IMG/VR virus record: IMGVR_UViG_3300037258_000219
Coordinates: 1-40,559 of that record
Direction: 5' to 3' (one strand)
From: a virus
Length of the DNA: 40,559 nt
The notes under the pieces are model-generated. The model was given only the letters and a program-made list of their open reading frames with translations. It ran no database searches and was not told the origin of the DNA. The position numbers and the translations under genes are program-made. Positions 10,074 to 36,993 of this stretch are shown here, one piece after another; positions within the stretch are counted from its first letter, which is position 1; the number at the start of each line of letters is the position of its first letter.

Positions 10074-10077
10074 AGAA

Positions 10078-14406: not shown

Positions 14407-14435
14407 CCGGGTCCGCCAACCTCCACAACACGAGG

Positions 14436-14457
14436 GCGATCCGGTAGGGAGGATCGC
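14436..14457 (+). other. Hairpin at the capsid ribosome site
   Basis: GCGATCC (14436-14442) and GGATCGC (14451-14457) pair perfectly across an 8-nt loop, GGTAGGGA. The capsid ribosome site GGGAGG straddles loop and stem, four bases before GTG 14461. It could time or stabilise translation of the most abundant virion protein. Confidence 0.45.
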
Positions 14458-14460
14458 TTC

Positions 14461-15450
14461 GTGGCAGGCCAAGTCTGGGCAGTCAACACCCTCGGCGGGT
14501 ATTTCTACAGCCGACAGCTCTCCAACGTGCTGCGCATGAACGTGCAGCCGCTCACCAAATTCCGGCAGTTCGCCGATGTGCACGACGCGGCCCAGCAGGG
14601 CAAGCGCAAGGGCAACACCTTCACGTGGGACGTCGTGTCCGACGTGGCGCAGGTGGGCCAGGTGCTCATCGAGACGAACACCATGCCCGAGACCAACCTC
14701 ACGATCACGCAGGGCACCCTGACGATCACCGAGGCCGGCAACTCCATCCCCTACAGCGGCTTTCTCGACAACCTGTCGAAATACCCTGTCGAGGACATCA
14801 TCAAGAAGGGCCTGAAGAACGACACGGTCAAGACGCTCGATCGCATGACCTGGGGGCAGTTCAATCAGGCGCTCATCCGCGTGATCCCGGTCGGAGGCAC
14901 GAGCGCGAACGCGGTCACGCTCTACACCAACGGCACGGTCACCGGGACCAACTCGGTGGCGTACAGCAACGCGCACGCCAAGGCGATTGTTGATGCGATG
15001 AAGGAGCGGAACATTCCCGCCTACATCGCCGACGACTACTACTCGCTCGCCTGGCCGACCACGCTGCGCACCTTCAAGAACGCGCTCGAGGGCATCCACC
15101 AGTACTCCGACACCGGCATGAACCTCATCATGAACGGTGAGATCGGCCGCTACGAGAACGTGCGCTACATCGAGCAGACCAACATCGCCAAGGGCATCGG
15201 TTCCACCGGCATTGCGGTGGCGAGCGGCGGCGACATGGTCCAGTGGGCGAACGGTCAGAGCGACTGGATCTTTTTCTTCGGCAACGACACGGTGGCGGAA
15301 GCGATCGCGGTGCCCGAGGAGATGCGCGGCAAGATCCCGAGCGACTACGGTCGCAGCAAGGGCATCGCCTGGTACTACGTGGGCGGCTTCGGCATCGTGC
15401 ACGTGCTGCCGATCAACTGCCGCATCGCCAAGTGGGACAGCGCCGCGTAG
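14461..15450 (+). CDS. Major capsid protein (N4 gp56-like)
   Basis: A 329-residue coat protein from GTG 14461 (GGGAGG upstream). The stretch MKERNIPAYIADDYYSLAWP, then LRTFKNALEGIHQYSD, then MNGEIGRYENVRYIEQTN, matches the N4 gp56-type HK97-fold coat proteins, where a similar GEIGR...VRFVE block occurs. It follows the scaffold and is flanked by a hairpin on each side, as expected for a very highly expressed gene. There is no obvious prodomain to be cleaved. Confidence 0.88.
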   Translation: MAGQVWAVNTLGGYFYSRQLSNVLRMNVQPLTKFRQFADVHDAAQQGKRKGNTFTWDVVSDVAQVGQVLIETNTMPETNLTITQGTLTITEAGNSIPYSGFLDNLSKYPVEDIIKKGLKNDTVKTLDRMTWGQFNQALIRVIPVGGTSANAVTLYTNGTVTGTNSVAYSNAHAKAIVDAMKERNIPAYIADDYYSLAWPTTLRTFKNALEGIHQYSDTGMNLIMNGEIGRYENVRYIEQTNIAKGIGSTGIAVASGGDMVQWANGQSDWIFFFGNDTVAEAIAVPEEMRGKIPSDYGRSKGIAWYYVGGFGIVHVLPINCRIAKWDSAA

Positions 15451-15491
15451 GCGAGCGTTCACGGCTAAAAGGGTGGCGCCCCTGCAAAGCC

Positions 15492-15563: not shown

Positions 15564-16244
15564 ATGAGCCAGAGCAACCTGACCCGCAACGTCGCCTACG
15601 ACAACCCGGCCGCGCTTGCGCGCCTGGCGAAGGATCTCACCGTCAACAGCGCCGGCAGCGGTTCGGTTTCGGCCAGCAAGTTCTACGCCTGGGCGAGCGC
15701 AGTGCTTTACGGCGTGACCTTCTCGACGATCGCCGCGGGCACCAGCACCTACACGGTGTCCGGGGTGGCCACGAGCCCGGCCACCCAGGTCTCGCTGATC
15801 TACATCACGAACACCAACACCACGGGCACCGCGGTGTCGCTCGGCACGAGCACGATCGGCCCCTTCACCATCGGCGGCACCGGCACGGCCGGCACCAACG
15901 CGCCGGTGGGCGGCCAGGGCGGTGGCCTCGTCGGGGGCTACCAGGGTCCGTATGCGGTGAACACGCTCGGGGGCACGAACACCTCGCTTGCCTGGGGCAC
16001 GAACACCTTTGTATCCGGCACCGCCACCGCGGCCAACCAGATCCAGTCCGGTACCCCCGGCGGCGCCAATGTTGGTCTGGGCGGCCTGCCAATCAATCCA
16101 GGGGATGTGCTCTACTGCGTCAACGGCACCGATGCCACCGCGACCTGGGTTGCCACCCTGCAGTACGCCCTCGCCCCCGGACCCGGACCTGCGCTCGGAG
16201 CGGTGGCCCCGATCGGCCAGGCCCCCGGCAACCTGGTCGCGTAG
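15564..16244 (+). CDS. Putative head decoration protein, copy A
   Basis: A 226-residue protein with a beta-rich, Gly/Thr/Ser-rich composition. It shares a block with the next gene: GTSTYTV, NTNTTGTAV and a GTDATA stretch near the C-terminus, in the same order. The pair is a tandem duplication, with this copy longer by a Gly-rich insert around residues 95-150. Position after the capsid suggests a surface (decoration) or minor head protein. No enzymatic motif is seen. ATG 15564 has AGGAG (15552-15556) upstream. Confidence 0.72.
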   Translation: MSQSNLTRNVAYDNPAALARLAKDLTVNSAGSGSVSASKFYAWASAVLYGVTFSTIAAGTSTYTVSGVATSPATQVSLIYITNTNTTGTAVSLGTSTIGPFTIGGTGTAGTNAPVGGQGGGLVGGYQGPYAVNTLGGTNTSLAWGTNTFVSGTATAANQIQSGTPGGANVGLGGLPINPGDVLYCVNGTDATATWVATLQYALAPGPGPALGAVAPIGQAPGNLVA

Positions 16245-16253
16245 CGCGCCGCC

Positions 16254-16748
16254 ATGTCACAGGCCGTCAAGAACGTCACCGACCCGAGCTACTTCGCCCG
16301 CCAGGACGCGAACCTGGGCGAGATCACCGCGGGCTCGGCCGGCATCACGGGCAAGTTCGTCGCGTTTGCCGCGCTCACGCTCTTCTCGCTCACGACCTAC
16401 CAGTCGGTGCTCGGCACGAGCACCTACACGGTGGGCGGGACCGCGACCAAGAGCGGCCAGCAGCTCTCGGTGATCGTGGTGCAGAACACGAACACCACCG
16501 GCACGGCGGTGACGCTGAACACCACGACCTACGGGCCGTACTATGCCGGCGGCGTGGGACTGGCCACCGCGGCGCTGGGCGGCTCCAACCAGTTCCCGCT
16601 CAACACCGCGACCGACACCAGCGGCTACGGCGGGGTGCCCGTCTCGCAGGGCGCGCTGGTGTACGTCGTCAGCGGCACGGACGCGACCGCCAAGAACGTC
16701 TGCACGATCGACTACCAGGTCGGCCCACAGGCCCCTCTCACGCAATAG
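16254..16748 (+). CDS. Putative head decoration protein, copy B
   Basis: A 164-residue paralogue of the preceding protein. It carries the same ordered blocks (GTSTYTVGGTATKSG, QNTNTTGTAVTLN, SGTDATAKN) but lacks the Gly-rich middle insert. The two copies have diverged at most other positions, so the duplication is old. Probable external capsid protein. The shared residues suggest a beta-sandwich, which is inference. Confidence 0.72.
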   Translation: MSQAVKNVTDPSYFARQDANLGEITAGSAGITGKFVAFAALTLFSLTTYQSVLGTSTYTVGGTATKSGQQLSVIVVQNTNTTGTAVTLNTTTYGPYYAGGVGLATAALGGSNQFPLNTATDTSGYGGVPVSQGALVYVVSGTDATAKNVCTIDYQVGPQAPLTQ

Positions 16749-18750: not shown

Positions 18751-18990
18751 GTGAGCGAAACCGGACTGTGGATCTGGATCCGCGTGCCGCTGCGCGCGCT
18801 GGTCAGCGCGATCGATGCGCTCAAGGAGCGCAGCTGGCGCCGCCACCAACACGCCGCCAACCAGGCCGAGGAGCCCTCGAAGCTGCTGCGCGCTGCGGCC
18901 GACGCGGACGACCTGCACGCCGAGGAGCTGAAGGGCGCGATGCGCGCGTGGGAGAGGGGCGATGAGCCTCCCCGCAAATCCGGCCCCTGA
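18751..18990 (+). CDS. Small helical protein
   Basis: A 79-residue protein with an aromatic, hydrophobic start (GLWIWIRVPLRALV) that could form an amphipathic membrane helix, then a charged helix. GTG 18751 directly abuts the preceding stop. It ends inside the TylF-type gene. Function unknown. Confidence 0.6.
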   Translation: MSETGLWIWIRVPLRALVSAIDALKERSWRRHQHAANQAEEPSKLLRAAADADDLHAEELKGAMRAWERGDEPPRKSGP

Positions 18991-19534
18991 GAGAGCGCGC
19001 AGCGGCCGCGCCAAAGCCCCGCATTGCCTGGTCGCCACGAACGTGATCGAGGCGATGATGAAGCGGGCGCTGGCCGCCCCGGCCGGCGCCTTTGTCGAGG
19101 TCGGGGTCTATCACGGCGGCACCGCCTGGCACCTGGCGCGCGGCGCTGTTGCGCAGGGGCGCCCCTGCTACCTCTACGACACCTTCAGCGGGATCCCGTA
19201 CCGCGCCCCGCTCGACGATCACAACGTCGGCGACTTCGCCGATACGAGCCTGGAGCAGGTGCAGGCCGACATCCCCTCCGCGCAGTGCGTCCCGGGCATC
19301 TTCCCGGCGAGCGCGCGCGAGATGGGACCGATCGCCTTCGTGCACCTGGACTGCGACCAGGAGAGAAGCTACGCCGATGCGCTCGCCTACTTCGACACCC
19401 GCATGGTCCGGGGCGGCGTCATCTGGTGCGACGATGTACCCTGCCTGCGCGGTGCCGAGGCGGCCCTGAGGGCCTATTGCGAGCGCACCGGGCGAGTCTG
19501 GCAGCTCGCCGAGAAGGCGTGGATCGGTTACTGA
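18962..19534 (+). CDS. TylF/MycF-type SAM-dependent O-methyltransferase
   Basis: 190 residues with a class I methyltransferase fold of the TylF/macrocin-O-methyltransferase family. Motif I is FVEVGVYHGG (44-53), and LYDTFSGIP (71-79) follows. A metal-binding triad is visible: D130 in HLDCD and D157-D158 in IWCDD, matching the Mg2+ site of MycF. These enzymes methylate sugar hydroxyls. ATG 18962 has GGAGAGGGG upstream. It is followed after 15 bases by the methyltransferase-glycosyltransferase fusion, suggesting they act on the same sugar. A virion or host-surface target is inference. Confidence 0.87.
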   Translation: MSLPANPAPERARSGRAKAPHCLVATNVIEAMMKRALAAPAGAFVEVGVYHGGTAWHLARGAVAQGRPCYLYDTFSGIPYRAPLDDHNVGDFADTSLEQVQADIPSAQCVPGIFPASAREMGPIAFVHLDCDQERSYADALAYFDTRMVRGGVIWCDDVPCLRGAEAALRAYCERTGRVWQLAEKAWIGY

Positions 19535-19549
19535 CGACGGGGAAGGACG

Positions 19550-21229
19550 ATGAGCTGGGACATCAACGGCCCGCAGGGCAACGAGAGCGGCAAGATCAAA
19601 TGGGAGATCGTGCCGTGGACGCGCGGCCGGGGCCTGGACCTGGGCTGTGGGATTCAAAAGACCTTCCCGCACTTCATCGGCGTGGACAACAGGAAGGACC
19701 AGGCGCTGTTCGGCCACGCGATCAACCCTGACATCGTCGTGCAGAGCGCCGCCGAGCTGCCGATGTTCGCCTCCGGAAGCATGGACTTCGTGTTCTCCAG
19801 CCACCTGCTCGAGCACTTCCCGCTGGAGAAGCCCGACCCCACCCGGTGGGCGAACCCGATCGCGCGCGAGATGGCCAAGCGCTCGATGCTCGAGGAGCAC
19901 ACCGCCTCCGAGGCGCTGCGCGAGTGGATGCGGGTGCTCAAGCGCGACGGGTATTTGGTGCTCTACGTGCCAGACGAGGAGCAGTACCCCAAGGTGGGCG
20001 AGCCCGGGGCGAACCCCGATCACTGCTGGAACGTCAACTACGAGGGGGTGCTCAAGCTCATGCGCGCCACCGGCGCCGGCTTCGACCTGGTGGACTTCCA
20101 ACAGCGCTCGAGCGGCGCGGAGTACTCGCTCTACTTCGTGTTCAAGAAAACCGGCAACGGGCATCACGAGAGCTGGCGCAGCAAGAAGCGAGCGGCGAAG
20201 ACCTGCGGGGTGGTGCGCTACGGGGCCTACGGGGATCTGCTGCAGACGAGCTCGGTGCTGCACGGCCTGGCCGAGCAGGGCTACGCGGTGACGCTCTACA
20301 CCTCAGGTCCGGGTGATGAGGTGATCCGTCACGACCCGCACATCCATGCCTTCTACCTGCAGGACAAGGACCAGGTGCCGAACCACCTGCTGGGCGAGTT
20401 TTGGAAGTACGAGAGCGGCAAATACGACAAGTGGGTGAATCTCTCCGAGAGCGTGGAGTGCACGCTACTGTCCATCCCGGGGCGCACCCCCCACCTGTGG
20501 TCACCCGCGGCCCGCCATCGCTACATGAACCACAACTACGTGGAGATGCAGCACGCGATCGCGTCCGTCCCGCACGTGCCGCGGGTGCGCTTCTACCCGC
20601 TCGAGAGCGAGCGCGACTGGGCGCGCCAGGAACGCCGGAAGCTCGGCGGCGCCCCGCTGGTGCTCTGGGCGCTGAACGGCTCCTCGGTGCACAAAACCTG
20701 GGGAGGCCTCGACAAGACGATCGCCTCGATCCTGCTGGACTTTCCGGCCAGCGCGGTGGTGCTGGTCGGCGGTCCGGAGAGCGCGATTCTGGAGGGCGGC
20801 TGGGAGGCCGAGCCGCGCGTGAAGTGCCGGAGCGGAAAGTACTCGATCCGTCAGACCATGGCGCTGCTGGAGTTCGTCGACGTCGTGGTGGGACCGGAGA
20901 CCGGGATCCTGAACGCTGCCAGCGGCCTGCCGATGCCGAAAGTGTGCTTCCTGTCGCACTCCACGCACGAGAACCTCACGCGCGACTGGGTGAACACCAC
21001 CAGCATCGCCTCGAAGAACACCACCTGTCCGGGACGAGGGGCGAACGAGGCGCCGGCCTGCCACCAGATGCACTACAGCTGGGAGCACTGCAAACAGTTC
21101 CGCGAAGAAGGCCACCCGCAGGACGGCACCGCGCAGTGCCAGCGTGACATCGACGGGGTGGCCGCCTGGGATCTCATCCGCCGCGCCATCGCCGGCACGC
21201 TCGAGCAACCGCTCGTGCAGCGAGCATAG
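19550..21229 (+). CDS. Methyltransferase-GT9 glycosyltransferase fusion
   Basis: 559 residues with two domains. Residues 20-205 form a class I SAM methyltransferase (LDLGCG at 29-34, an SSHLLEHF segment, then WMRVLKRDGYLVLYVP). Residues 215-480 form a GT9 (ADP-heptose:LPS heptosyltransferase-like) domain: VVRYGAYGDLLQTSSV opens it and VVGPETGILNAASGLPMP closes the nucleotide-sugar site. A C-terminal Cys-rich tail (C493, C504, C514, C530) could bind a metal. GT9 enzymes transfer heptose-like sugars to LPS core. The pairing with a methyltransferase and TylF suggests a methylated sugar. GGAAGGA precedes the ATG. It ends in the 9-bp inverted repeat at 21225. Confidence 0.85.
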   Translation: MSWDINGPQGNESGKIKWEIVPWTRGRGLDLGCGIQKTFPHFIGVDNRKDQALFGHAINPDIVVQSAAELPMFASGSMDFVFSSHLLEHFPLEKPDPTRWANPIAREMAKRSMLEEHTASEALREWMRVLKRDGYLVLYVPDEEQYPKVGEPGANPDHCWNVNYEGVLKLMRATGAGFDLVDFQQRSSGAEYSLYFVFKKTGNGHHESWRSKKRAAKTCGVVRYGAYGDLLQTSSVLHGLAEQGYAVTLYTSGPGDEVIRHDPHIHAFYLQDKDQVPNHLLGEFWKYESGKYDKWVNLSESVECTLLSIPGRTPHLWSPAARHRYMNHNYVEMQHAIASVPHVPRVRFYPLESERDWARQERRKLGGAPLVLWALNGSSVHKTWGGLDKTIASILLDFPASAVVLVGGPESAILEGGWEAEPRVKCRSGKYSIRQTMALLEFVDVVVGPETGILNAASGLPMPKVCFLSHSTHENLTRDWVNTTSIASKNTTCPGRGANEAPACHQMHYSWEHCKQFREEGHPQDGTAQCQRDIDGVAAWDLIRRAIAGTLEQPLVQRA

Positions 21230-21245
21230 GTAAGCCTTACCTATG
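21225..21245. promoter_or_regulatory. Perfect 9-bp inverted repeat spanning stop and start
   Basis: CATAGGTAA (21225-21233) and TTACCTATG (21237-21245) are exact reverse complements with GCC between them. The left arm holds the TAG of the glycosyltransferase gene and the AGGTAAG ribosome site. The right arm ends in the ATG of the next gene. Folded as RNA it would bury both ribosome site and start codon; as DNA it is a 21-bp operator-like palindrome. Confidence 0.7.
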
Positions 21246-22298
21246 ACGGCCCTGAACCTCAACGCCGCCAGCGCCAACACGCCATCGACGTCGGGGAGCT
21301 ATACCTTTTCGGTCACGCGCGACCAGATCATCCGCCTGGCGATGCTCGACATCGGCGCGTTGCAGGAAGGCGAGAACCCCACCGCCCAGGAGATGAGCGA
21401 TTGCGCGCTGAAGCTCAACATGCTGGTCAAGCAGTGGATGGGCGACACCGACTTTGCACCGGGGCTGAAGGTGTGGACGCGCAAGCGCGCGGATCTCTTC
21501 ATGAACTTTAATCAGTTCACCTACCAGATCGGCCAAACCGGGCGTGACAACTGGATCGAATCCACCACCGGGCTCATCTACCCGCAGAACTACGGCCAGA
21601 CGACGCTCAGCACCACGCAGGCCGCCGGAGCCACCGTGCTGCCGGTGGCGGCCACCAGCCAGCTCAACGTCGCCGATCAGATCGGGGTGCAGACCGGCGC
21701 CCAGAGCATCTACTGGACGACCATCGCCGCCATCGACAGCGTCGCTCTCACCGTCACGATCGCCGCCCCCGGCCTGCCCACCGGCGGCGCCCCGTTCGGC
21801 GCGTTCATTTGGAACTACACGGTGAAGGGCATCCGGCCGCTGCGCCTCATCAGCGCGGTGCTGCGCGATCAGTACCAGAACGACACGCCGCTGCGCACGA
21901 TGACGGTGGAGCGCTACGAGAGCCTGCCGACCAAGACCAGTCCCAACTCGGTCGGGGATCCCACCGCGGTCTTCTACGAGGCGCGCTACAAGCAGCAGAG
22001 CCCGAACGGGCAGATCTACCTGGATGTGGGCTGTCCGGCGGACATCACCAAGCACATCCACTGCGTCTACCTCGCGCCAATCGAGGACTTCGTCAACCCG
22101 GGCGACGCACCGGACTACCCGCAGGAGTGGTTCCGTCCGCTGGTGCTCGGCACCGGACGCGACATCGCCGGCATGTTCGACTGCAGCTGGGACCTCGGCG
22201 ACTCGCTCACCGAGGCGATCGCGATCGCCCGCCAGGGCAACCCCGCCACCACCGATGCGTACTTCCAAGTCAACGGCGATGATCCGTATGGGCTGTGA
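21243..22298 (+). CDS. P22 gp4-like head-tail connector
   Basis: 351 residues. The N-terminal part (TFSVTRDQIIRLAMLDIGAL, then a LKLNMLVKQWM helix and a VWTRKRADL strand) fits gp4-type tail accessory factors, which bind below the portal to close the DNA-filled head. Residues 105-175 look like an inserted Thr/Ala-rich beta domain not expected in P22 gp4 (166 residues), which explains the greater length. It is followed directly by the gp10-like hub gene. The start lies in the 9-bp inverted repeat. Confidence 0.75.
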   Translation: MTALNLNAASANTPSTSGSYTFSVTRDQIIRLAMLDIGALQEGENPTAQEMSDCALKLNMLVKQWMGDTDFAPGLKVWTRKRADLFMNFNQFTYQIGQTGRDNWIESTTGLIYPQNYGQTTLSTTQAAGATVLPVAATSQLNVADQIGVQTGAQSIYWTTIAAIDSVALTVTIAAPGLPTGGAPFGAFIWNYTVKGIRPLRLISAVLRDQYQNDTPLRTMTVERYESLPTKTSPNSVGDPTAVFYEARYKQQSPNGQIYLDVGCPADITKHIHCVYLAPIEDFVNPGDAPDYPQEWFRPLVLGTGRDIAGMFDCSWDLGDSLTEAIAIARQGNPATTDAYFQVNGDDPYGL

Positions 22299-22301
22299 GC
22301 G

Positions 22302-23822
22302 ATGACCGCCCGGCTCAAGCGTGTGGCGCTCTTTGGCGAGGGCATCTACTCGCGCTCGCCGATCGTCACCCGCCAGCGACGGCTGAACTGCTACCTCGAG
22401 GTGCGGCCCGATGGGGACAAGGCAAAGATCGTGCTCTATGGCACCCCCGGCCTGCGGCTGCTGTTCAACGCCTCCCCCGCGCTGAACAATCCCCTGCGCG
22501 GCCTCATCGGCAACCTCACCGCCCTCTATGGGGTGACGGGTAATCAGTTCGGCAGCTACTCCTCCAGCGGAGCTCTGCTGGAGGCCGGATCGATCGGCTC
22601 CACCACGGGCGTGGTGGGCATGGCGCTGAACCCCACCCAGGTGCTGGTGGTCGACGGCTCGGCCGGCTACATCTACTCGGTCAACACCGGGCACGTCACC
22701 CAGATCCCGGCGACCCAGGCCTTCCCGAACGGGGCGAGAAGCGCCTGCTACTGCAACGGCTTTTTTCTGGCCGAAGACCCGGGCACCAATCAGTTCTTCG
22801 TCAGCAACCTCAACGACGGCACGCTGTGGTCGGGCCTGTCCTTCGCCGCCGCGGTGCAGGCGATCGACGGCATCGTGGCGGTGGACACCCTCGGGGGCCT
22901 TGCCGTCATCTTCTCGAGCGGACACTGCGAATTCTGGCAGAACGTGGGCGCCATTCAGGAGCCCTTCCAATACATCACCAACTCCGCCCAGATGTACGGC
23001 CTGGCGGCCGTGAACGGACGCTGCCACGCGGCCAATGCGATCGTGTTTCTCGCCAACACCAACGGCGGGTCCTTCCAGAACTCCTCCGGAGGGCTGCAGA
23101 TCTGCTCGATCGCCGGCTACGCGGTAAAGGTGGTCTCCACCAGCGACATCGACAACATCCTGCAGACGATGGCGCGTACCAGCACCGTGACCGACTGCAC
23201 GGCCTTCTCCTACCAGATCGATCAGCACACCTTCTGCCAGTTCAACTTTCCCACCGCCAACCGCTCGCTGCTGCTGGACATGGCCACCGGCTTCTGGAGC
23301 GAGGCGCAGTCGGGCGTGGCCGCAGGCTACGCCGCTCGCCACCTGGGGAACCTTGCCGCCGGCGCCTACGGCGGGGCCTACGTCGCTGACTACTCCAACG
23401 GCAACGTCTACGCCTTCGACCCGAATGTCTATACCGACAATGGCAACACCATCGTGCGCGAGCTCGTGACGAAGACCGGGGTGGAGGACTTCAACACCTA
23501 CCGTATCAGTCAGATCTACCTGGACATGCGCACGGGCGTGGGCCTGCCCTCACCCGCCGCCCAGGGCTACGCCCCGGTGGTGCAGCTACAGGTGGCGCGC
23601 GACATGCGCGACTTCGGCGCCCCGCGGCTCTTTCAGCTCGGGCAGCAGGGCCAGTACATGCAGCGCGTGCTCTCGCGTCGCTGGGGACGGGCGCGCACCT
23701 CGACGCTGCGCGTCTACATGACGGACCCCGTGCCCTTTGAGATCACGAGCGGGGCGATGCTCACCAGCATGCGCCAGGGCAGGCGCGCCACCGGCCAGGC
23801 CAGCACCTCGAGGTCGGCATGA
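22302..23822 (+). CDS. P22 gp10-like packaged DNA stabilisation protein
   Basis: 506 residues, close to P22 gp10 (472). Most of the protein is predicted to be a beta-propeller-like repeat, with strands such as LVVDGSAGYIYSVN, GGLAVIFSSGHCEFWQ and NGNVYAFDPN. It should form the tail hub below the gp4-like connector and help retain packaged DNA. The start at ATG 22302 follows the gp4-like stop by three bases, and the end overlaps the next gene as ATGA. The assignment rests on order, size and strand pattern. Confidence 0.82.
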   Translation: MTARLKRVALFGEGIYSRSPIVTRQRRLNCYLEVRPDGDKAKIVLYGTPGLRLLFNASPALNNPLRGLIGNLTALYGVTGNQFGSYSSSGALLEAGSIGSTTGVVGMALNPTQVLVVDGSAGYIYSVNTGHVTQIPATQAFPNGARSACYCNGFFLAEDPGTNQFFVSNLNDGTLWSGLSFAAAVQAIDGIVAVDTLGGLAVIFSSGHCEFWQNVGAIQEPFQYITNSAQMYGLAAVNGRCHAANAIVFLANTNGGSFQNSSGGLQICSIAGYAVKVVSTSDIDNILQTMARTSTVTDCTAFSYQIDQHTFCQFNFPTANRSLLLDMATGFWSEAQSGVAAGYAARHLGNLAAGAYGGAYVADYSNGNVYAFDPNVYTDNGNTIVRELVTKTGVEDFNTYRISQIYLDMRTGVGLPSPAAQGYAPVVQLQVARDMRDFGAPRLFQLGQQGQYMQRVLSRRWGRARTSTLRVYMTDPVPFEITSGAMLTSMRQGRRATGQASTSRSA

Positions 23823-24064
23823 CAACGCCGCTCGGGGGGCTCCCACAACTGCCGGCCACGGCCAGCGCCGCCTGGTCGGGCTGGTTCTCGCTGGCGCAGC
23901 AGATCCTGCAGGCGACGAGCTCCTCGGGACCCACCACCGCCCGGCCCACCACCAATTTGTACGTGGGTCAGTTTTATTTCGACACGACCCTGGGATTTCC
24001 GGTGTGGTGCTCGGCCCCGGGGAGCTCGCCCACCTGGGTGAACTCCCAAGGGATGGTCTCGTGA
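23819..24064 (+). CDS. Small tail-associated protein
   Basis: An 81-residue protein with a WxxW-type small domain at its end (NLYVGQFYFDTTLGFPVWCS, then PTWVN). This short domain recurs in phage tail genes, often beside hub and fibre genes, and may act as an adaptor. ATG 23819 overlaps the previous stop. Its stop overlaps the next gene's GTG. Confidence 0.7.
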   Translation: MTTPLGGLPQLPATASAAWSGWFSLAQQILQATSSSGPTTARPTTNLYVGQFYFDTTLGFPVWCSAPGSSPTWVNSQGMVS

Positions 24065-24675
24065 GGCACTTCCTGTGCATGGGGCGGGGCGTGAACGTGC
24101 TGCCGCTCGCCTGCGAGATCCTGCGCCAGGGGCAGCTGTGGCGAGAGGACACGTACCTGCGCGACTACCCGCAAGGACCCTTCCGCGACGTGGAGACGAT
24201 CTTTCTGCGCTTCCCGCCGGCGAGCGTGAGCGAGCTCGAGAGGAGCACCAGAGATCAGCACGAGTGTGTGTGGATGGACGGGGCGATCCATCTGCCAGCC
24301 GCCCGGCCGCTGATCTTCGCGCTGATGCAGCAGGTCGCCGGAGAGCGCCTGGGGCGCGTCATGCTCAACAAGATCCGGCCAGGCGGGCGCATCTACCCGC
24401 ACGCCGACACTCCGGCCCACGTGAAGTACTACTCGCGCTTCCACTACGTGGTGATGAGCTCGCCCGGGGTGAGCTTTCGCTGCGATGACGAAACCGCCCC
24501 GATGCAGGCCGGGGACCTGTGGTGGTTCAACAACGCGCTCGAGCACGAGGTGGTGAACAACTCCGCCCAGGAGAGGATCCACCTGATCATCGACATTCGC
24601 TGCGCGCAATTCGCCTTCAAGGCGGCCACCCCGACCAGCGCTCCGGAGCCGGATGGGGAGATTCAGGCGCCATGA
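24061..24675 (+). CDS. AspH-type 2-oxoglutarate/Fe(II) hydroxylase
   Basis: 204 residues from GTG 24061 (GTGA overlap). The double-stranded beta-helix core shows IYPHADTPAH with iron ligands H114 and D116, the distal H162 in LEHEVVNN and R172 (ERIHLIID) for the 2-oxoglutarate carboxylate. This fits the aspartyl/asparaginyl beta-hydroxylase family, which hydroxylates Asp/Asn in protein domains or small molecules. No second domain is present, so the substrate is recognised within this fold. It lies between tail and ejection genes and overlaps the GNAT gene by ATGA. A virion-protein substrate is inference. Confidence 0.86.
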   Translation: MRHFLCMGRGVNVLPLACEILRQGQLWREDTYLRDYPQGPFRDVETIFLRFPPASVSELERSTRDQHECVWMDGAIHLPAARPLIFALMQQVAGERLGRVMLNKIRPGGRIYPHADTPAHVKYYSRFHYVVMSSPGVSFRCDDETAPMQAGDLWWFNNALEHEVVNNSAQERIHLIIDIRCAQFAFKAATPTSAPEPDGEIQAP

Positions 24676-25154
24676 TCAGCGCCCACATCGAACGCCTGCA
24701 CGACTGCCTGGAGGAGTTGAAGCCCCTGTTCGCCCCTCACTGGCGCGAGCTCGCACTGAACCAGGACAGGGTGGCGCTCGACCCGCAGTATGAGCTCTAC
24801 CTGCAACGCGAGGCCGCCGGGGAGGTGCTGTGCGCGACGCTGCGCGAGCGCGGTGCGCTGATCGCCTACTTCGTGGGCTTCGTCGCCCCGGGCATGCACT
24901 ACCGCTCGTGCCTGACGCTCACGATGGACATCTTCTGGGTGCACCCGGAGCAGCGCGCGAGCGACTCGCTCTCCTCGGTCGAGGAGGAGCTGCTGTGGAT
25001 CCAGCTCTTCGAGTGCGTGCTCGAGGAGGCCAAGCGCCGGGGCGTCAAGCGCACCTTTTTCGGCAGCAAGGTGCACCAGGACGCCGGTCCCATCTTCGAG
25101 CGCATGGGCATGGTGCCCGTCGATGTGTACTACAGCGGCTGGCTGGGAGACTGA
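24672..25154 (+). CDS. GNAT-family N-acetyltransferase
   Basis: 160 residues from ATG 24672 (ATGA overlap). The segment RGALIAYFVGFVAPGMHYRS forms the strand pair at the substrate cleft, and LTMDIFWVHPEQRASDSLSS carries strand 4 and the acetyl-CoA-binding turn, followed by a helix (ECVLEEAKRRGVKRTFFGS). Close relatives occur in phages beside ejection and tail genes. Acetyl-CoA is the expected donor; the acceptor is unknown. Pairing with the AspH-type gene suggests sequential modification of one target. Confidence 0.85.
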   Translation: MISAHIERLHDCLEELKPLFAPHWRELALNQDRVALDPQYELYLQREAAGEVLCATLRERGALIAYFVGFVAPGMHYRSCLTLTMDIFWVHPEQRASDSLSSVEEELLWIQLFECVLEEAKRRGVKRTFFGSKVHQDAGPIFERMGMVPVDVYYSGWLGD

Positions 25155-25155
25155 C

Positions 25156-25815
25156 ATGGTAGCGGCAGCAATTGTCGGGGTAGGGCTCGCCGGCGCGGTG
25201 GGCAGCGGCATCGCAGGCTCTGAGGCCGCCGGTGCCACCACGAGTGCCACCAACGCGGCGGTGGGTGAGCAGAACGCAGCGCTGCAGCAGCAGGCGCAGC
25301 TTGCCGCCCCGTACACCGGGGTGGGCCAGGCGGCGATCCCCGGCTACGAGAACCTGCTCGGCATCGGCTCTCAGGGCTCGGCCGGCATCATGCAGGCGCT
25401 CCAGCAGACCCCCGGCTACCAGTTCGCGCTGTCCCAGGGTGAGACCGGCATCAAGAACGCCGCGAGCGCCCAGGGCGGCATCAGCGGCAACACGCTCGCG
25501 GCGCTGGATCAGTACAACCAGGGAGAAGCGAGCCAGACCTACCAGCAGAATGTCGGGGACATCCAGGGCGCGGTGGGCATCGGCCAGGCGGCCGCGGCCG
25601 GACAGGCCTCGAATATCGGCACCGCCGCCGGCAACATCTCGGGCCTGGTGGAGAACCAGGGCCAGACCACCGCGGGGATCGACGCCAACACGGTGGCCGG
25701 ACTTACCCAGTCGCTCGGGGGCATCGGGCAGAACTACGTGACGATGAACGCGCTCAACGCGCTGAACTCCCAAGCGCAGCTCTCCCCGGTCAACGTCACC
25801 GCCCAGTACATGTGA
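25156..25815 (+). CDS. Ejection protein (P22 gp7-like)
   Basis: 219 residues from ATG 25156. The first 40 residues are hydrophobic, Gly/Ala-rich (VAAAIVGVGLAGAVGSGIAG), like membrane-active or pilot-protein segments. Then come Gln/Ala/Gly-rich helices, including QTPGYQFALSQGETGIKNAA and GNTLAALDQYNQ, which recur in gp7-type DNA transfer proteins. It begins a three-gene ejection block and should be delivered into the host envelope during DNA entry. Confidence 0.74.
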   Translation: MVAAAIVGVGLAGAVGSGIAGSEAAGATTSATNAAVGEQNAALQQQAQLAAPYTGVGQAAIPGYENLLGIGSQGSAGIMQALQQTPGYQFALSQGETGIKNAASAQGGISGNTLAALDQYNQGEASQTYQQNVGDIQGAVGIGQAAAAGQASNIGTAAGNISGLVENQGQTTAGIDANTVAGLTQSLGGIGQNYVTMNALNALNSQAQLSPVNVTAQYM

Positions 25816-25824
25816 GGCGCCGCC

Positions 25825-27393
25825 ATGGCCGACTTTGACCCCTCCGTCATCTCCTCGATCCCGAGCCGGGTGGGCGACCCGACCGAGAGCTACGAGAAGG
25901 CGCTGAACATCAAGGACATGCTCGATCGCAACCAACTGCAGGACCTGCAGGTGGGCGAGGCCAAGAGGAGCGCCAACGAGAGCGAGCAGGCGCGCCAGAT
26001 CCTGCAACGCTCGGACTACTCGACCCCGCAGGGGGTGGCGAGCACCGCCGCGAAGCTCAATCGCGTCTCGCCCTCCGCGGCGATGGATCTGATGAAGTTC
26101 GGCCAGCAGTACCAGAGCGGGCAGGTCCAGCAGCAGATCGATCAGCTGCAGCTGCTCGACCAGCGCCAGGGAATGATCGTCTCGGCCATCGACCCGATCG
26201 TGAGCCAGGCGCGCCAGATGAAGCAGAGCGGCGCGAGCGACCTGGACATCAAGGCGTACATCACCCAGCAGATGCCAGGGGCCCTGCAGCAGCTGCGCTC
26301 GCTGCAGCTGCCCGACGGCAAGCCCGCGCTGCCCGACGATCAGCTGCAGATGGTGAGCCAGGTGCCGGGGGGCTACAGCCTGCCCACGCTCGAGACCTGG
26401 GAGAGCCGCAGCAAGGCCGGCCAGGCGGCGATCAAACAGCGCCTGGACCAGTTCAAGGCCGACACGGCCGCGAAGGCCGAGACGGTGCGCGAGCGCCAGG
26501 CCGACACTCAGCAGGCCGGGGAGCTCGAGCGCGAGAAGCACGATCGGGCAAGTGAATGGCTCAGCCGCTACAAGATCGACAACAGCCAGTTCACCCCCGA
26601 CCAGCAGGGCATGCTCGCCGCGCTCGCCGACAAGAACGTGAATCTGCCGGCGGGCATGAGGAGCCAGGCGCAGATCCGCGCCACGCTCGACGGGCTGCGC
26701 GCGCGCCACCCGGACGAGAGCGCCGATCAGATCGCGGACGACATCGTGTCGGGCAAGCTGAAGCTCACCGCCGAGACGCGCGGCGCGCAGACCGCCGGCA
26801 ACCAGATCGGCAAGGTGGCCCTCGCCGCCAATGAGCTGGACACCTTCGGCGACCAGGTCATGACCGCATCGCGCAACCTGCCGAGGAACCTGCCGGTGGG
26901 CCTGACGCTGCGCGGGCTCATGCAGATGGGCGAGAAGCAGGCCTCCAACACGGGCCTGCTGACGCTGCGCCTGAAACTGCAGGCGCTGAACAACGCCTAC
27001 GACCAGCTCGCCAGCCGCGGTGGCACCGATGCGGAGAAGCGCGGGCACATCGCCTCACTGTTCGATGCCCGCCTGACCGACCAGGCGATCCAGGCGCTGG
27101 TGCTCGGCGTGAAGCAGGAGGCCGAGGGCGCCCGCCAGGCGGCCAACCGCACGGTGGGTGAGGTCTCGGGCACCGCCATTCCCGGCGCAGCCATCCCCGG
27201 TGCGGGCGGTACCCCTGGCAATGTTCCCGCCGGAGCGGGAGCTTCTGCGGCGCAGACTCCCCCTGTCGCTGCCGGTGCCCCCGCTCCGACGCCAGCCGCG
27301 GCCATGCCAGCCGGCGGCGCTGCTCTACAGCCGGGACAGACCTACCGTCACGCCTCGGGTGCGACCGTCGAGATCCTGCCGGACGGGCAATAG
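25825..27393 (+). CDS. Ejection / internal virion protein
   Basis: 522 residues, Gln/Ala-rich and helical throughout, as expected for P22 gp20-like internal proteins. The N-terminus begins DPSVISSIPSRVGDPTESY. The region 135-430 contains long amphipathic helices, and the final 60 residues are Pro/Ala/Gly-rich linker. It has no enzymatic motif. It is flanked by gp7-like and gp16-like genes and abuts the next gene's start exactly (TAG then ATG). Assignment rests on order and composition. Confidence 0.7.
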   Translation: MADFDPSVISSIPSRVGDPTESYEKALNIKDMLDRNQLQDLQVGEAKRSANESEQARQILQRSDYSTPQGVASTAAKLNRVSPSAAMDLMKFGQQYQSGQVQQQIDQLQLLDQRQGMIVSAIDPIVSQARQMKQSGASDLDIKAYITQQMPGALQQLRSLQLPDGKPALPDDQLQMVSQVPGGYSLPTLETWESRSKAGQAAIKQRLDQFKADTAAKAETVRERQADTQQAGELEREKHDRASEWLSRYKIDNSQFTPDQQGMLAALADKNVNLPAGMRSQAQIRATLDGLRARHPDESADQIADDIVSGKLKLTAETRGAQTAGNQIGKVALAANELDTFGDQVMTASRNLPRNLPVGLTLRGLMQMGEKQASNTGLLTLRLKLQALNNAYDQLASRGGTDAEKRGHIASLFDARLTDQAIQALVLGVKQEAEGARQAANRTVGEVSGTAIPGAAIPGAGGTPGNVPAGAGASAAQTPPVAAGAPAPTPAAAMPAGGAALQPGQTYRHASGATVEILPDGQ

Positions 27394-29754
27394 ATGCCCG
27401 CCGCGCTCGTCACGCTCCCCGATGGCCAACGCGCCCGGGTGACCTTCACCGACCCCGCGCAGCTCAACGCCACGGTGACGGACCTCGCGAAGCAGCACCC
27501 GAGCAAGCAGCAGCGCGAGCAGCAGTGGCAGGCGAACGATCCGCTGCACAAGCTGGGCGAGAACGCCACCGGGGCGATCGCAGAGCCCGCGGTGCAGGCC
27601 GTCAGCGGCCTGGCCGGCCAGGCGGCCGGGGGCCTGCGCGGCATTTACGACCTTGCCACGGGCAAGGGCGCGGACAAGGCCACGGCCGATATTCAATCGA
27701 CCGAGCAGGCACTGACCTACCAGCCGCGCACCGCCGCGGGTAAGGCCGTCAGCCACGTGATCCAGGCCCCCTTCACCCTGCTCGCCCGGGGCGCCGATGC
27801 GGCCGGCGGGGCGGCGGCGCGTGGCACCACCGCGGGCCTGCGCGACCTGGGCGTCTCGGACGACACCGCCATCAAGGCCGGCGCCGGAGTCGGCGCGGCG
27901 GTCTCCACCGGCATCCAGGCCGCCCCTGCCGCGCTCATCCCGGCCGCGCGCGGGGTCACGAACCTGGTGCGCGGCGCCCGGGTGCCCCCCGCGGCCGCGG
28001 CCGAGGCCATGACGGCCACGGGTGCCCCGCGTGCGGCCCCCTCCACGGTCGGGGAGGAGGTTCCACAGGGAACATCGCCACCACCCTCCCAAACCGCACC
28101 AGGAGCCCCAGGCGCGGCGCAGCCGCCACCTGCCGGCCGTCCTACCCCCGAAACCCCGCAAACCGCGAGGGCGCAGTCCTATGCCCGCCGCATTGGCCTT
28201 GATTGGGCTCGTCTGGGCGCTGGTACACGCAAGGCGCTCGAGAGCATCGCGCAGGACGCCGGTGCGCTCGAGCGTCTCAACCCCGAGGCGGTCAAGCGCC
28301 AGGCCCACCTCGAGGCCCTGCGCGTCCCGGTGCGCGCCACCCGGGGACAGCTCGAGCGCGACCCCGTCCAGCTACGCCGAGAAGCGCTCGCATCGAACAC
28401 GACTGAAGGTCAGCCCATCCGGGACACGGACGTGGCAGCAAACCGAGACGTTCAAGCGAACCTGGAAGTCCTGCGCGGCCGACTCGCCGGTCGACGAGGC
28501 AGCTACCAGGAGCCGCTGACCCCCGGTGGGGAGGAGATCCCGGGCGCCGTGCGGGCCCCGACCAAGGCACCTACTCAGGTCGGGGAAGCCGCGCAGAGCG
28601 CGGTGCGCGAGAAGGCGAAGTGGTCGAAGAAGGGCTACCAGGCGCTCTACAAGCTCGCCCGCGAAACCGAGCCGGACGCGAAGGCGCCGATCGCCCCGGT
28701 CAGCTCGCTCCTGGAGAGCAATCCCGAGATCCAGCACCTCGGCTGGGTACAGGGCTGGCTGTCCAAGGCGAGAAGCGTGCTGAAGCCCAACGAGGCCGGC
28801 GAGACACCCGAGCTCACCGACGTCACGCTCAACGAGCTGCACGACCTGCGCAGCAAGGCCAACGACATCGCGCGCACCGGCGGCAAGGAAGGCTACTACG
28901 CCGGCCAGGTGGTCAAGGCCGTCGATGAGTCGATGGAGCACGTGCCCGAGGGTGCCGCCGCCTGGAAGCGTGCCAACGCGGCCTTCAAGGCCCACAAGCA
29001 GGAATTCGGCGAGCAGGGGCTGGTGGCGAAGCTCGCCAACCAGAAAAAGGGCAGCGCCGCTGACCGGCAGCTCGCCACCGAGAAGACCTGGAAGCAGGTG
29101 GCGACGGGGCCCGTCGAGAGCATCCGACAGCTCAAGCGCACGCTGATCAAGGGCGGCACCCCGCAGCTGCGCCGCCAGGGCGCACTCGCCTGGCGGGACC
29201 TGCGCGCCGAGACCGTCAACCGCATCCTCGAGGACGCTCGCAACGTCACCGGCGCGGACGAGACCGAGAGGAACGTGCTGACCGAGGCGGCGCTGCGCAG
29301 GAGCATCAACCGCATCCCGCGCGAGAACCTCGAGGAGCTCATCGGCAAGGGGGCGACGCGCGAGCTGCTCGACATCGTGCGCGCGCGGCGCATCACCACG
29401 AGGAGCCCGGTGGGCGGGCGCACCACGCAGTCCGGCACCGTGCCCAACGCGCTGGTGCTCGCCGAGAAGGTGCTCGGGCACATCCCGGGCGGGCGCTACG
29501 TGCTCGGGGCCAAGCACCTGGCGAAGGACCTGGGCGAGCGCGCCGAGCAGGCCCGCGCGGCCCGTACCGCGAACATCACCCCGCTCGAGCAGGCCGTGCA
29601 GGACGTGCAGAGGAGCCGGCCGAACTATGCCCGCGAGCAGCGCGCAGCGCGGCGCGCTGCCGCCTACGGGCAGCTCGAGCAGCTCGGGCCCACGCTGCCG
29701 GCCGCCCCGACGATCGGTCAGGCGCTGAACGTGCCGCGTCCTCCTCAGCCGTGA
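27394..29754 (+). CDS. Large ejection protein (P22 gp16-like position)
   Basis: 786 residues. The first 50 form a small beta domain (LVTLPDGQRARVTFTD), which is shared in style with a short domain at the end of the preceding protein (YRHASGATVEILPDGQ). A Gly/Ala-rich hydrophobic region (about 60-200) could cross the envelope, and long charged helices fill 270-770. I see no peptidoglycan-hydrolase motif. The likely role is transfer of DNA into the cell, with the protein leaving the virion. Confidence 0.72.
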   Translation: MPAALVTLPDGQRARVTFTDPAQLNATVTDLAKQHPSKQQREQQWQANDPLHKLGENATGAIAEPAVQAVSGLAGQAAGGLRGIYDLATGKGADKATADIQSTEQALTYQPRTAAGKAVSHVIQAPFTLLARGADAAGGAAARGTTAGLRDLGVSDDTAIKAGAGVGAAVSTGIQAAPAALIPAARGVTNLVRGARVPPAAAAEAMTATGAPRAAPSTVGEEVPQGTSPPPSQTAPGAPGAAQPPPAGRPTPETPQTARAQSYARRIGLDWARLGAGTRKALESIAQDAGALERLNPEAVKRQAHLEALRVPVRATRGQLERDPVQLRREALASNTTEGQPIRDTDVAANRDVQANLEVLRGRLAGRRGSYQEPLTPGGEEIPGAVRAPTKAPTQVGEAAQSAVREKAKWSKKGYQALYKLARETEPDAKAPIAPVSSLLESNPEIQHLGWVQGWLSKARSVLKPNEAGETPELTDVTLNELHDLRSKANDIARTGGKEGYYAGQVVKAVDESMEHVPEGAAAWKRANAAFKAHKQEFGEQGLVAKLANQKKGSAADRQLATEKTWKQVATGPVESIRQLKRTLIKGGTPQLRRQGALAWRDLRAETVNRILEDARNVTGADETERNVLTEAALRRSINRIPRENLEELIGKGATRELLDIVRARRITTRSPVGGRTTQSGTVPNALVLAEKVLGHIPGGRYVLGAKHLAKDLGERAEQARAARTANITPLEQAVQDVQRSRPNYAREQRAARRAAAYGQLEQLGPTLPAAPTIGQALNVPRPPQP

Positions 29755-31073
29755 AGCTTCTCATCGTGAACATGGACACCGTGGGCGAGGGCCTCGCCTT
29801 TGCGCTGCGCGCCGCCAAGGCCGAGCACGACGTGCGCATCTGGTTTGCGAAGGGCTCCCCGGCCGAGCTCGGCGCAGGCTTCAAGCAAATCAAGATCGTC
29901 GAGCAATGGCTCGCAAGCGCTCGCTGGGCGGATCTGATCGTGCCCACCGGCAATCACCTGTACCTGCCGAAGCTCCAACAGCTGCGCCGCGCAGGCATGC
30001 ATGTGTTCGGTCCCTCGATCGAGAGCGCGAAGCTCGAGATCAAGCGCGCCTTCGGGATGCAGTTCTTCCAGGCCCACGGGATCGAGGTGCCGGAGTTCAA
30101 GGAGTTCAAGACGCTCGCCGACGCCGAGGCGCACGTCTACCAGACCGAGCGCGCCTACGTGTTCAAGACGCTGGGGGACGAGGATGACAAGAGCCTGTCG
30201 TACGTGGGGAAAACACCTGCCGATCTCATCGCACGGCTGCAGCGCTGGCAGCGGATGGATCTGGGTGCAAAAGGTCCATTCATGCTGCAGGAGAAGGTCG
30301 ACGGCGTGGAAGTGGGCGTCTCGCGCTGGATGGGAGAGGCGGGCTTCGTCGGTCCCTATAACGAGAACTTCGAATTCAAGAAGCTGATGTCCGGCAACGC
30401 AGGACCCAACTGCGGGGAGGCCGGCACGGTGATGAAGTACGTCGAGGACTCAAAGCTCGGCAAGAGCGTGCTCGCCCCGCTCGAGCAGAGCCTGGTGAAG
30501 CTCGGGCACCTGGGCGACATCGACGTGAACTGCATCATCGATGAGGCGGGCCGCGCCTGGCCGCTGGAATTCACCATGCGCCTGGGCTGGCCCGCCTTCA
30601 ATATTCAACTCGCCACCACCGCGGGGGACCCGGTGCAGTGGATGCTCGACGCCTGCGAGGGCAAGGACACGCTCAAGGTGCGCTGGTCGACCGCCTGCGG
30701 GGTGGTGATCGCACAGCCCTCCTACCCGTTTCACGCCAAGCCCCCCGAGGAGCTCGTGGACGTGCCGATCTACGGGGTGAGCCCCGAGAACGAGAACTAC
30801 CTCTACCCGCAGGCCGTGAAGCGAGCGGTGCTGCCGGACATGAAGGACGGCAAGCTCACCGAGCGCGATATCTGGGCGAGCGCCGGGGACTACCTGCTGG
30901 TCGTGACCGGCACCGGCAAGACGGTGCGCCAGGCGGCCACCCGCGCCTACGACACGCTGCACGACATCTATGTGCCGGACATGATCTACCGCGACGACAT
31001 CGGCGAGAAGCTCGAGGAGGAGCTGCCGAAGCTCCACGAGCACGGTTACGCGCAAGAGTTCGAGTACGAGTGA
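29751..31073 (+). CDS. PurD-like ATP-grasp ligase
   Basis: 440 residues from GTG 29751 (GTGA overlap). The fold follows glycinamide-ribonucleotide synthetase: an N-terminal Rossmann-like part (LLIVNMDTVGEGLAFALR, PTGNHLYLPKL), FGPSIESAKLEIKRAF at the ATP-grasp entry, FMLQEKVDGVEVGV, a GPNCGEAGT turn resembling PurD GPNTGGMG, and the Mg-binding PLEFTMRLGWP. PurD joins phosphoribosylamine and glycine, but here several typical PurD residues differ and the gene lies among tail genes. Ligation of an amino acid to a virion protein, sugar or base is therefore also possible. No other purine genes are present. Confidence 0.82.
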   Translation: MKLLIVNMDTVGEGLAFALRAAKAEHDVRIWFAKGSPAELGAGFKQIKIVEQWLASARWADLIVPTGNHLYLPKLQQLRRAGMHVFGPSIESAKLEIKRAFGMQFFQAHGIEVPEFKEFKTLADAEAHVYQTERAYVFKTLGDEDDKSLSYVGKTPADLIARLQRWQRMDLGAKGPFMLQEKVDGVEVGVSRWMGEAGFVGPYNENFEFKKLMSGNAGPNCGEAGTVMKYVEDSKLGKSVLAPLEQSLVKLGHLGDIDVNCIIDEAGRAWPLEFTMRLGWPAFNIQLATTAGDPVQWMLDACEGKDTLKVRWSTACGVVIAQPSYPFHAKPPEELVDVPIYGVSPENENYLYPQAVKRAVLPDMKDGKLTERDIWASAGDYLLVVTGTGKTVRQAATRAYDTLHDIYVPDMIYRDDIGEKLEEELPKLHEHGYAQEFEYE

Positions 31074-31085
31074 GGAGCTGAACCG

Positions 31086-32465
31086 ATGGCAAGCACCCTG
31101 TACATGTCGGGCATCAGTCTCATCGTGCAGTACCTGACGAACCTCGGGCTGATGGCCGCCGGCGGCTCGCTCGCCACCTATGTGGGCGGCACGACGACCC
31201 CGCTCAGCACCTACACCGACAACACGGGCCTGGTGGCCAACCCGAACCCGATGACGCTGTCCTCCACGGGACGCCCCGCGGCTGCCAGCGGCGCCCCGGT
31301 CGCCTTCTGGACGCCCGGCGGCAGCCTGGTGCGCCTGCTGGTCAACGACGCCGCCGGCAACCAGCTGGTGTTTCTGGACAACATCGCCTCCCTCAACGAC
31401 CTGACCAACTCCACCACCACGCTGCAGGCGCTGCTCGCCTCCGCCGCCTCCGCCGGTGGGACGGGCTTTGGCCCTGTGGCCGGCGCGGACCTGGTCGCCA
31501 ACGCGATGAAGTCCTATGACGTGATCGCGGACGTGCGAGCCGCGAACACCCCGGTGCTCGTCACCGGGCAGACCCTCACGATCAGCGTGCAGGGGGGTAC
31601 CTCGATCAACGATGGGTTGGGCGGGCTTTTCTACTGGAACGCCAGCAGCAGCGCAGGGGACAACGGCGCCACCGTGCTGAAGCCCAACACCAACACCGGC
31701 GCGGGCCGCTGGCTGCGCCTGTTCGCTCCCCCCCTCGGAGCGGTGAGCTCGATCGCCTCGGGCGGCACGACCGACCTCGGCACGCTCGCCACCAACATCG
31801 TGACGGTGACCGGCACGAGCGGGATCAGCTCCTTTGGCTCCTCGGCCTCCCAGGGCAACCCGCTCTACGTGGTGCAGTTCGCCTCGCCCCTGACGCTCAC
31901 CCAGGGCGGCCCGCTGCAGCTGCCCGGCGGCCAGAACCTCACCGTCGGGGCGAGCGATGCGATGCTGCTGCTCTACCTCGGCTCAGGCAACTGGATCGTG
32001 CTGGGCTACTTCCCCTACCTGGGGGTGGGCATCACGCTGCTGAAGACGAGCGACCAATCGGTCGCGAGCTCCACCGCCCTGGTCGACGACAACACGCTCA
32101 CGATCGGGCTGGCCGCCGGCTACACCTACCTGGTGAGCGTCAAGGCGATGCTGCTGGGAAGCACCGGCACCGGCCAGGGCTACAAGGTGCAGCTCACCTA
32201 CGGCGGCTCGCTCGGCGGGGTGGCGGTGGGGCAGATCGCCTACTCGAGTGACGACACGCTCACCACCGCGGTGCTCACGCCCAATACCACCTACAGCGCC
32301 AGTGCGATCGCCGACACAGGCGGGGACATCGTCTACATGGACATCGTGCTTCAGCCCACCACGAGCGACACGCTGACGCTGCAGTTCGCGCAGGAGAGCT
32401 CCAGCGCCGACGCCACCACGATGAAAGCCGGATCGATGATGACCGTCCGGGCGCTCGCCGCGTAA
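31086..32465 (+). CDS. Tail fibre / adaptor protein
   Basis: 459 residues. Residues 10-95 resemble the head-binding start of phage tailspikes and fibres: LGLMAAGGSLATYVGG, then TTPLSTYTDNTGLVANPNP and TGRPAAASG. Residues 140-215 form a small domain with YDVIADVRAANTPVLVTG, then GLFYWNASSSAGDNGATVL and a RWLRLF strand. The last 140 residues, beginning near KTSDQSVASS, form a beta-rich C-terminal domain seen in other phage fibres. GAGGAG lies upstream of ATG 31086. It should sit between the gp10-like hub and the receptor-binding spike at 32478. Confidence 0.8.
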   Translation: MASTLYMSGISLIVQYLTNLGLMAAGGSLATYVGGTTTPLSTYTDNTGLVANPNPMTLSSTGRPAAASGAPVAFWTPGGSLVRLLVNDAAGNQLVFLDNIASLNDLTNSTTTLQALLASAASAGGTGFGPVAGADLVANAMKSYDVIADVRAANTPVLVTGQTLTISVQGGTSINDGLGGLFYWNASSSAGDNGATVLKPNTNTGAGRWLRLFAPPLGAVSSIASGGTTDLGTLATNIVTVTGTSGISSFGSSASQGNPLYVVQFASPLTLTQGGPLQLPGGQNLTVGASDAMLLLYLGSGNWIVLGYFPYLGVGITLLKTSDQSVASSTALVDDNTLTIGLAAGYTYLVSVKAMLLGSTGTGQGYKVQLTYGGSLGGVAVGQIAYSSDDTLTTAVLTPNTTYSASAIADTGGDIVYMDIVLQPTTSDTLTLQFAQESSSADATTMKAGSMMTVRALAA

Positions 32466-36161: not shown

Positions 36162-36359
36162 GTGGACTACTTCAGCTACAACGCCCAGCAGCTGGAGCAG
36201 CAAGAGGCGCGGCGGCGCGGGCGAGCGCAGGAACGCGAAGACTTCGCGGCCGAGCTCGCGCCGCCGCCGAGCGGGATGATCGTCCAGGAGGACCACGCCT
36301 CCACCACGGTGATCGAGCGGGTGCGCGAGCAGATCTACGCGATGCTCGGCAAGCGCTAG
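36162..36359 (+). CDS. Last rightward gene, charged helical protein
   Basis: 65 residues from GTG 36162, two bases after the previous stop, with a weak ribosome site (GAAGG overlaps it). Glu/Gln/Arg-rich helices frame a Pro-rich patch (AELAPPPSGM). It ends in TAG, which overlaps the TAG of the opposing gene by two bases, so the two arrays meet without an intergenic terminator. Function unknown. Confidence 0.6.
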   Translation: MDYFSYNAQQLEQQEARRRGRAQEREDFAAELAPPPSGMIVQEDHASTTVIERVREQIYAMLGKR

Positions 36360-36979: not shown

Positions 36980-36993
36980 GGGCTCTCCAGGGT

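Follow-up and report, generated by a model that had tools for sequence, protein, structure and literature searches.

What do modification enzymes do when their genes are threaded through the virion genes of a phage, and do they act together? The question is raised by IMGVR_UViG_3300037258_000219, an uncultured short-tailed phage whose complete IMG/VR record, 40,559 bases long, is the window (the whole stretch of DNA analysed here). Its + strand morphogenesis array is P22-like (TerL, portal-like protein, major capsid protein (MCP), Hc3 and gp7-like ejection protein) and includes five enzyme genes, which we assign below to three modules:

7543-9186, + strand: TerL (family match)
10510-12918, + strand: portal-like protein (family match)
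14461-15450, + strand: MCP (phrog_1357, E=6e-17), candidate glycan acceptor
15564-16244 and 16254-16748, + strand: two Ser/Thr/Gly-rich, decoration-like genes behind the MCP gene, alternative candidate glycan acceptors
18962-19534, + strand: TylF-type sugar O-methyltransferase (PF05711), accessory enzyme of module 1
19550-21229, + strand: fusion of a class I methyltransferase and a GT9-type GT-B glycosyltransferase (MT-GT9) with a C-terminal four-Cys finger, core of module 1 (Pfam, fold, synteny)
21243-22298, + strand: phrog_12985 protein (E=2e-17; a phrog without functional annotation) at the place of the head-tail adaptor (gp4 in P22), role assigned from synteny
22302-23822, + strand: tail hub/head closure protein Hc3 in the P22 gp10 position (phrog_578, E=4e-70)
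23819-24064, + strand: small virion protein (phrog_20787, E=1e-7)
24061-24675, + strand: AspH-type Fe(II)/2OG hydroxylase (PF05118), GTG start most likely, accessory enzyme of module 2
24672-25154, + strand: probable GNAT acyltransferase (family profile, position), accessory enzyme of module 2
25123-25815, + strand: DNA-ejection protein, P22 gp7-like (phrog_598, E=2e-24), candidate substrate of module 2
25825-27393 and 27394-29754, + strand: two genes in the gp20/gp16 position, presumed from synteny to encode ejection proteins; family searches gave no useful match
29751-31073, + strand: ATP-grasp ligase of module 3, PurD-like but with changed substrate loops (Pfam, fold, motifs)
31086-32465, + strand: tail spike/fibre-like protein (spike role assigned from position and composition), candidate substrate of the ATP-grasp enzyme

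The five co-directional enzyme genes lie among structural genes, as the first-pass annotation had it. That several genes are joined by ATGA/GTGA overlaps held as well: ATGA is shared by AspH and GNAT (24672-24675) and GTGA by the 27394-29754 gene and ATP-grasp (29751-29754), and a GTGA overlap between the small virion gene and AspH (24061-24064) is probable, homologue alignment making GTG 24061 rather than ATG 24079 the most likely AspH start; the TylF/MT-GT9 and MT-GT9/21243 gene pairs do not overlap. A scan of 14-33.9 kb, a weak and uninformative test, gave no match to a sigma70-type promoter. The arrangement is more than chance, because the positions of the enzyme genes are kept across dozens of diverged contigs and dN/dS between the window and its close relatives is 0.19-0.50 for all five enzymes. 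Elsewhere, the window encodes a ParB-N/N6-N4 DNA methyltransferase fusion (5863-7242, +) and, within its leftward-transcribed right end, a DnaJ (J-domain) protein (36356-36997, -; PF00226, E=1.8e-16).

Relatives were fetched with ATP-grasp, MT-GT9, Hc3 and capsid queries and merged into contig clusters. For the key counts a gene was scored only in contigs found through a different gene, and MCP served as the anchor for the unbiased survey. Neither the phage nor its MT-GT9 had a match among 50,697 named phage records, and a divergent query recovered MT-domain matches only; the MT-GT9 profile matched at least 389 environmental phage contigs.

The TylF-type protein scored 40.7 bits against PF05711 (E=2e-10; gathering cutoff 23), and its profile matched sugar O-methyltransferases such as the mycinamicin and NovP enzymes (7e-11 to 7e-10). 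For MT-GT9, the N-terminal part scored 36.7 bits against Methyltransf_11 (cutoff 21.2) and the glycosyltransferase part 12.6 bits against PF01075 (GT9; E=0.084), below the gathering score of 22 bits. The AF2 model of the fusion (pLDDT 84) has a WaaC/WaaF-type GT-B fold and matches GT9 structures (3tov, 7e-14; WaaF 1psw, 9e-13), the structural matches being GT9, WaaF, WaaC and TibC. A SAM motif is present in 87 of 89 fusions and an ETG-type motif in 88 of 89, and the C-lobe carries a four-Cys finger, putatively metal-binding, whose main form occurs in 75 of the 89 alongside CX2C variants. Compared with the WaaC/WaaF and TibC/BAHT heptosyltransferases, whose GT-B fold it shares, MT-GT9 adds the N-terminal methyltransferase domain and has the ETG motif in place of D-S/T-G; the C-terminal finger also occurs in WaaF, in BAHT and as the iron finger of TibC (PMC4358343), and is not diagnostic. 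Use of the finger to sort protein (TibC) from LPS (WaaF) heptosyltransferases was rejected, because host WaaF and BAHT both carry one. Five MT-GT9 members gave no match up to E=1 with TIGR04414 (autotransporter protein heptosyltransferase, TibC/Aah), and in a single-sequence hhalign test the GT9 domain of the fusion aligned best with WaaF, an LPS enzyme. Because the finger is common to WaaF and the protein heptosyltransferase TibC, a heptose-type donor supplied by the host is likely for the glycosyltransferase domain, the sequence being compatible with either class of acceptor. The scanned parts of the window yielded no recognisable gene for sugar-nucleotide synthesis.

The position of MT-GT9 points to the capsid. 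Among 20 independent contig clusters found by capsid or ATP-grasp queries, 19 hold MT-GT9 between the capsid and adaptor genes; the sole exception, L308, has ATP-grasp and spike genes in its place and lacks MT-GT9. TylF is accessory, occurring in six of the 20. A bacterial-genome match to MT-GT9 (L198) belongs to a different type of phage, in which a tape-measure gene accompanies an HK97-type protease-capsid fusion; its group comprises 80 viral relatives, 66 of whose loci have enough sequence for comparison. There, an HK97-type protease-MCP fusion gene lies upstream of the MT-GT9 homologue in 62 of the 66 loci (within 400 bp in 55 of these 62; median distance between domains 162 bp), and a P22-type MCP gene lies just upstream in three more. 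TylF shares the cassette in nine loci of this group, in orders that include capsid-TylF-MT-GT9 and, once, TylF-capsid-MT-GT9; TylF, MCP and MT-GT9 are contiguous in L379. No other evidence supports a capsid substrate as strongly as this repeated association with capsid genes from two unrelated lineages. On the best reading MT-GT9 would attach to a capsid protein a sugar that comes from the host, is probably methylated and, to judge from the fold, is of the heptose type. The two decoration-like genes of the window have a Ser plus Thr content of 22-24%, and their place behind the MCP gene is kept in relatives. Upstream of MT-GT9, L143 encodes a GDSL-lipase-like protein (14217-15455; E=1.7e-7, just under the Pfam cutoff) where fibre-like genes are found elsewhere.

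Virion glycosylation is already documented in a few mycobacteriophages. Capsid glycans are known from Che8-type phages, according to work cited in PMC11256854, and the O-methyltransferase/glycosyltransferase cluster gp35-38 of Corndog lies in the structural operon between the portal and protease genes (PMC4351075). The likeness to these systems consists in the pairing of glycosyltransferase and O-methyltransferase genes and extends to TylF, which resembles the methyltransferase part of the mycobacteriophage Avani gp105 glycosyltransferase. By contrast, the loci described here, which we know through their genes, have, next to the capsid gene, one MT-GT9 fusion that bears a Cys finger, and the fusion has prophage relatives in Gram-negative hosts. 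Prophages of Paraburkholderia rhynchosiae WSM 3937 (L193) and Paraburkholderia sp. C35 (L194) both combine MT-GT9 with AspH, GNAT and ATP-grasp. Both this fusion architecture and the capsid-linked MT-GT9 family appear to be undescribed in the literature searched.

Module 2 lies between Hc3 and the ejection gene. AspH scored 60.9 bits against PF05118 (2e-16; cutoff 22.6), and its Fe site HxD...H and an Arg are invariant in the family alignment. The single GNAT sequence of the window had no Pfam match, and the family profile matched PDB acetyltransferases with E=1.4e-4. AspH, GNAT, SET or cupin genes, the SET genes being identified by Pfam, occupy this slot in 59 of 70 contig clusters: AspH with GNAT in 19, SET with cupin in 14, GNAT in 9, cupin in 8, AspH in 4 and mixed contents in 5, leaving 11 with none recognised, a class that sometimes holds GNAT-like or other small genes left out of the counts. 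AspH/GNAT and SET are nearly mutually exclusive, occurring together in one contig (Fisher p=6e-5, a value that ignores shared ancestry). SET enzymes are protein (lysine) methyltransferases, and because the slot is exchanged with them, a protein is favoured over the host surface as the substrate of module 2. The exchangeable slot appears to be undescribed in the literature searched. As to the SET proteins themselves, their SET domain is C-terminal (L004, 4477-5304; L007, 4456-5286; L170, 14715-15578), and the N-terminal part looks weakly cupin-like (Cupin_2, E=0.02 in L170).

Parts of this slot recur in other phages. The AspH-GNAT pair precedes the gp7-like gene of the isolated Pseudomonas phage PfAn1, which has none of the other enzymes, and AspH and GNAT are neighbours in Limnohabitans phage DC33 (PQ492659, L187), a phage filed under Inoviridae despite a 39 kb genome with this tailed-phage-like pair. 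MW202796 and a Zobellviridae phage each have GNAT alone after Hc3, and its place before the ejection gene recurs in unrelated podoviruses. GNATs beside ejection genes are already known: gp63 of Lessievirus JC1 lies near ejection/internal virion genes (PMC9144972), and pc40 of a Cobavirus was likened by its authors to T7 gp13 (PMC6775973). Both lie, like the GNATs described here, by head-closure or tubular genes and by internal virion genes. The window GNAT precedes an internal virion gene, that of phrog_598, and has the position of a T7 gp13-type GNAT, the comparison being one of position alone. Unlike JC1 gp63 and pc40, the GNATs described here frequently have an AspH partner and are interchangeable with cupin-SET genes.

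The enzyme of module 3 scored 36.8 bits against GARS_C (cutoff 34.8), contains an ATP-grasp domain as well and has the PurD fold over its full length (TM about 0.75). The likeness to PurD (GAR synthetase) ends there: against TIGR00877 it reached 91.8 bits where the equivalog cutoff is 288, and the PurD signatures GGREHA (N-terminal) and GDPE, present in host PurD, are absent from the aligned phage members, which have conserved loops of their own with GPNCGEAGT-like and RxGWP-like motifs instead. The gene was present in 26 of 30 contigs found by other genes and stands directly before the spike gene in almost all loci; in L308 (about 9995-12839) the two genes have been relocated together. Because the N-terminal domain of the spike also occurs in distant phages that lack ATP-grasp, this linkage is only suggestive of an enzyme that acts on the adjacent spike.

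The first-pass annotation had offered, as one of two readings, a single pathway in which the five enzymes modify a virion protein together. Such a composite modification of one protein is, in our judgement, quite improbable: AspH and GNAT do overlap by ATGA, but all five genes occur together in only eight contig clusters, the window included, and they come apart elsewhere. MT-GT9, with or without TylF, lacks AspH, SET and ATP-grasp in the HK97-type group (with one GNAT match), AspH-GNAT stands alone in PfAn1, and 12 of 38 contigs have ATP-grasp but no MT-GT9. The comparative data thus point to three separable modules, each apparently linked to its own part of the virion, rather than to one pathway. 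The wider part of the earlier reading, in which the enzymes are a fixed part of the array of virion genes and most probably have virion proteins as their substrates, is supported by the conserved positions; it was said to be vulnerable to relatives carrying these genes in unrelated places, and we found the positions conserved, with the MT-GT gene again beside the capsid gene in unrelated phages.

From gene identities, folds, active-site motifs, fixed neighbourhoods, the exchange of module 2 with SET genes and the separability of the modules, we infer chemistry, donors, substrates, the occurrence of modification and its benefit as follows. In module 1, the GT9-type domain would draw on a nucleotide sugar of the host, with ADP-heptose the likeliest, and attach the sugar to Ser/Thr of either the capsid protein or a protein that decorates the capsid; the sugar would be methylated by the methyltransferase domain of the fusion and, where present, by TylF. 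In module 2, AspH would hydroxylate and GNAT acylate an ejection/tail-hub protein encoded by a neighbouring gene. The PurD-derived ATP-grasp enzyme of module 3 would link a small carboxylate to an amine, with the neighbouring tail spike as a plausible site. Shielding or stability, and correct assembly or ejection, may be the benefit. We lean, with modest confidence, towards this account, in which five late genes encode modification enzymes dedicated to the virion, in three modules with these substrates.

Late position alone is no proof of a virion substrate, because Rac, a GNAT of phiKMV-like phages, has host targets (PMC7552054). The host surface was the alternative raised in the first-pass annotation: GT9, TylF, AspH (as an LpxO/OlsC-like enzyme) and GNAT would alter host LPS or lipids late in infection and so prevent virions from binding to debris, or superinfection. 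Such a role fits the LPS enzymes WaaF and WaaC as relatives of GT9, WaaF being among the closest, and the weak NCBIfam matches of AspH to the lipid hydroxylases OlsC (E=0.002) and LpxO (E=0.04), but these lie far under their cutoffs (17 against 450 bits and 13 against 500 bits). It is weakened further by the fixed place of MT-GT9 beside capsid genes in virions of two unrelated types and by the swapping of the AspH/GNAT slot with protein-lysine methyltransferases, and we consider it unlikely.

Host takeover in a narrower sense would leave only MT-GT9 and TylF to the virion, with GNAT, AspH and the SET-slot enzymes modifying host proteins and ATP-grasp serving nucleotide or amino-acid metabolism. 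Rac, which inactivates host transcription, is a GNAT, and PurD is a purine enzyme; yet Rac sits downstream of the phage RNA polymerase gene (PMC7552054), whereas the GNATs described here precede ejection genes in several podovirus groups, and the ATP-grasp family lacks the PurD signatures, so that we think this division of labour improbable. By the same difference in position, the window GNAT was rejected as an equivalent of Rac. Hypermodification of phage DNA bases by the glycosyltransferase and the ligase has parallels in phages that glycosylate their own DNA, as reported for Shewanella phage Thanatos, but is barely credible here, where the genes sit in the morphogenesis array and no base-hydroxylating or nucleotide-synthesis gene was recognised among the window proteins scanned.

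We return to modification of the virion as the preferred reading. Its fullest form can be put forward only tentatively, as a possibility we rather doubt: a widespread set of Gram-negative phages may devote a dedicated enzyme to each part of the particle, with methylated heptose-type capsid glycans made by MT-GT9 in two unrelated capsid lineages, an ejection apparatus whose proteins are hydroxylated, acylated or methylated by exchangeable enzymes, and a PurD recruited to a new role, amide ligation on the tail spike. The PurD-derived ligase is a new enzyme target. That AspH/GNAT and SET genes replace each other at a single locus suggests that ejection-apparatus proteins require covalent modification, the chemistry of which can vary, and the hundreds of environmental phage contigs with a capsid-tied fusion make capsid modification in Gram-negative phages directly testable.
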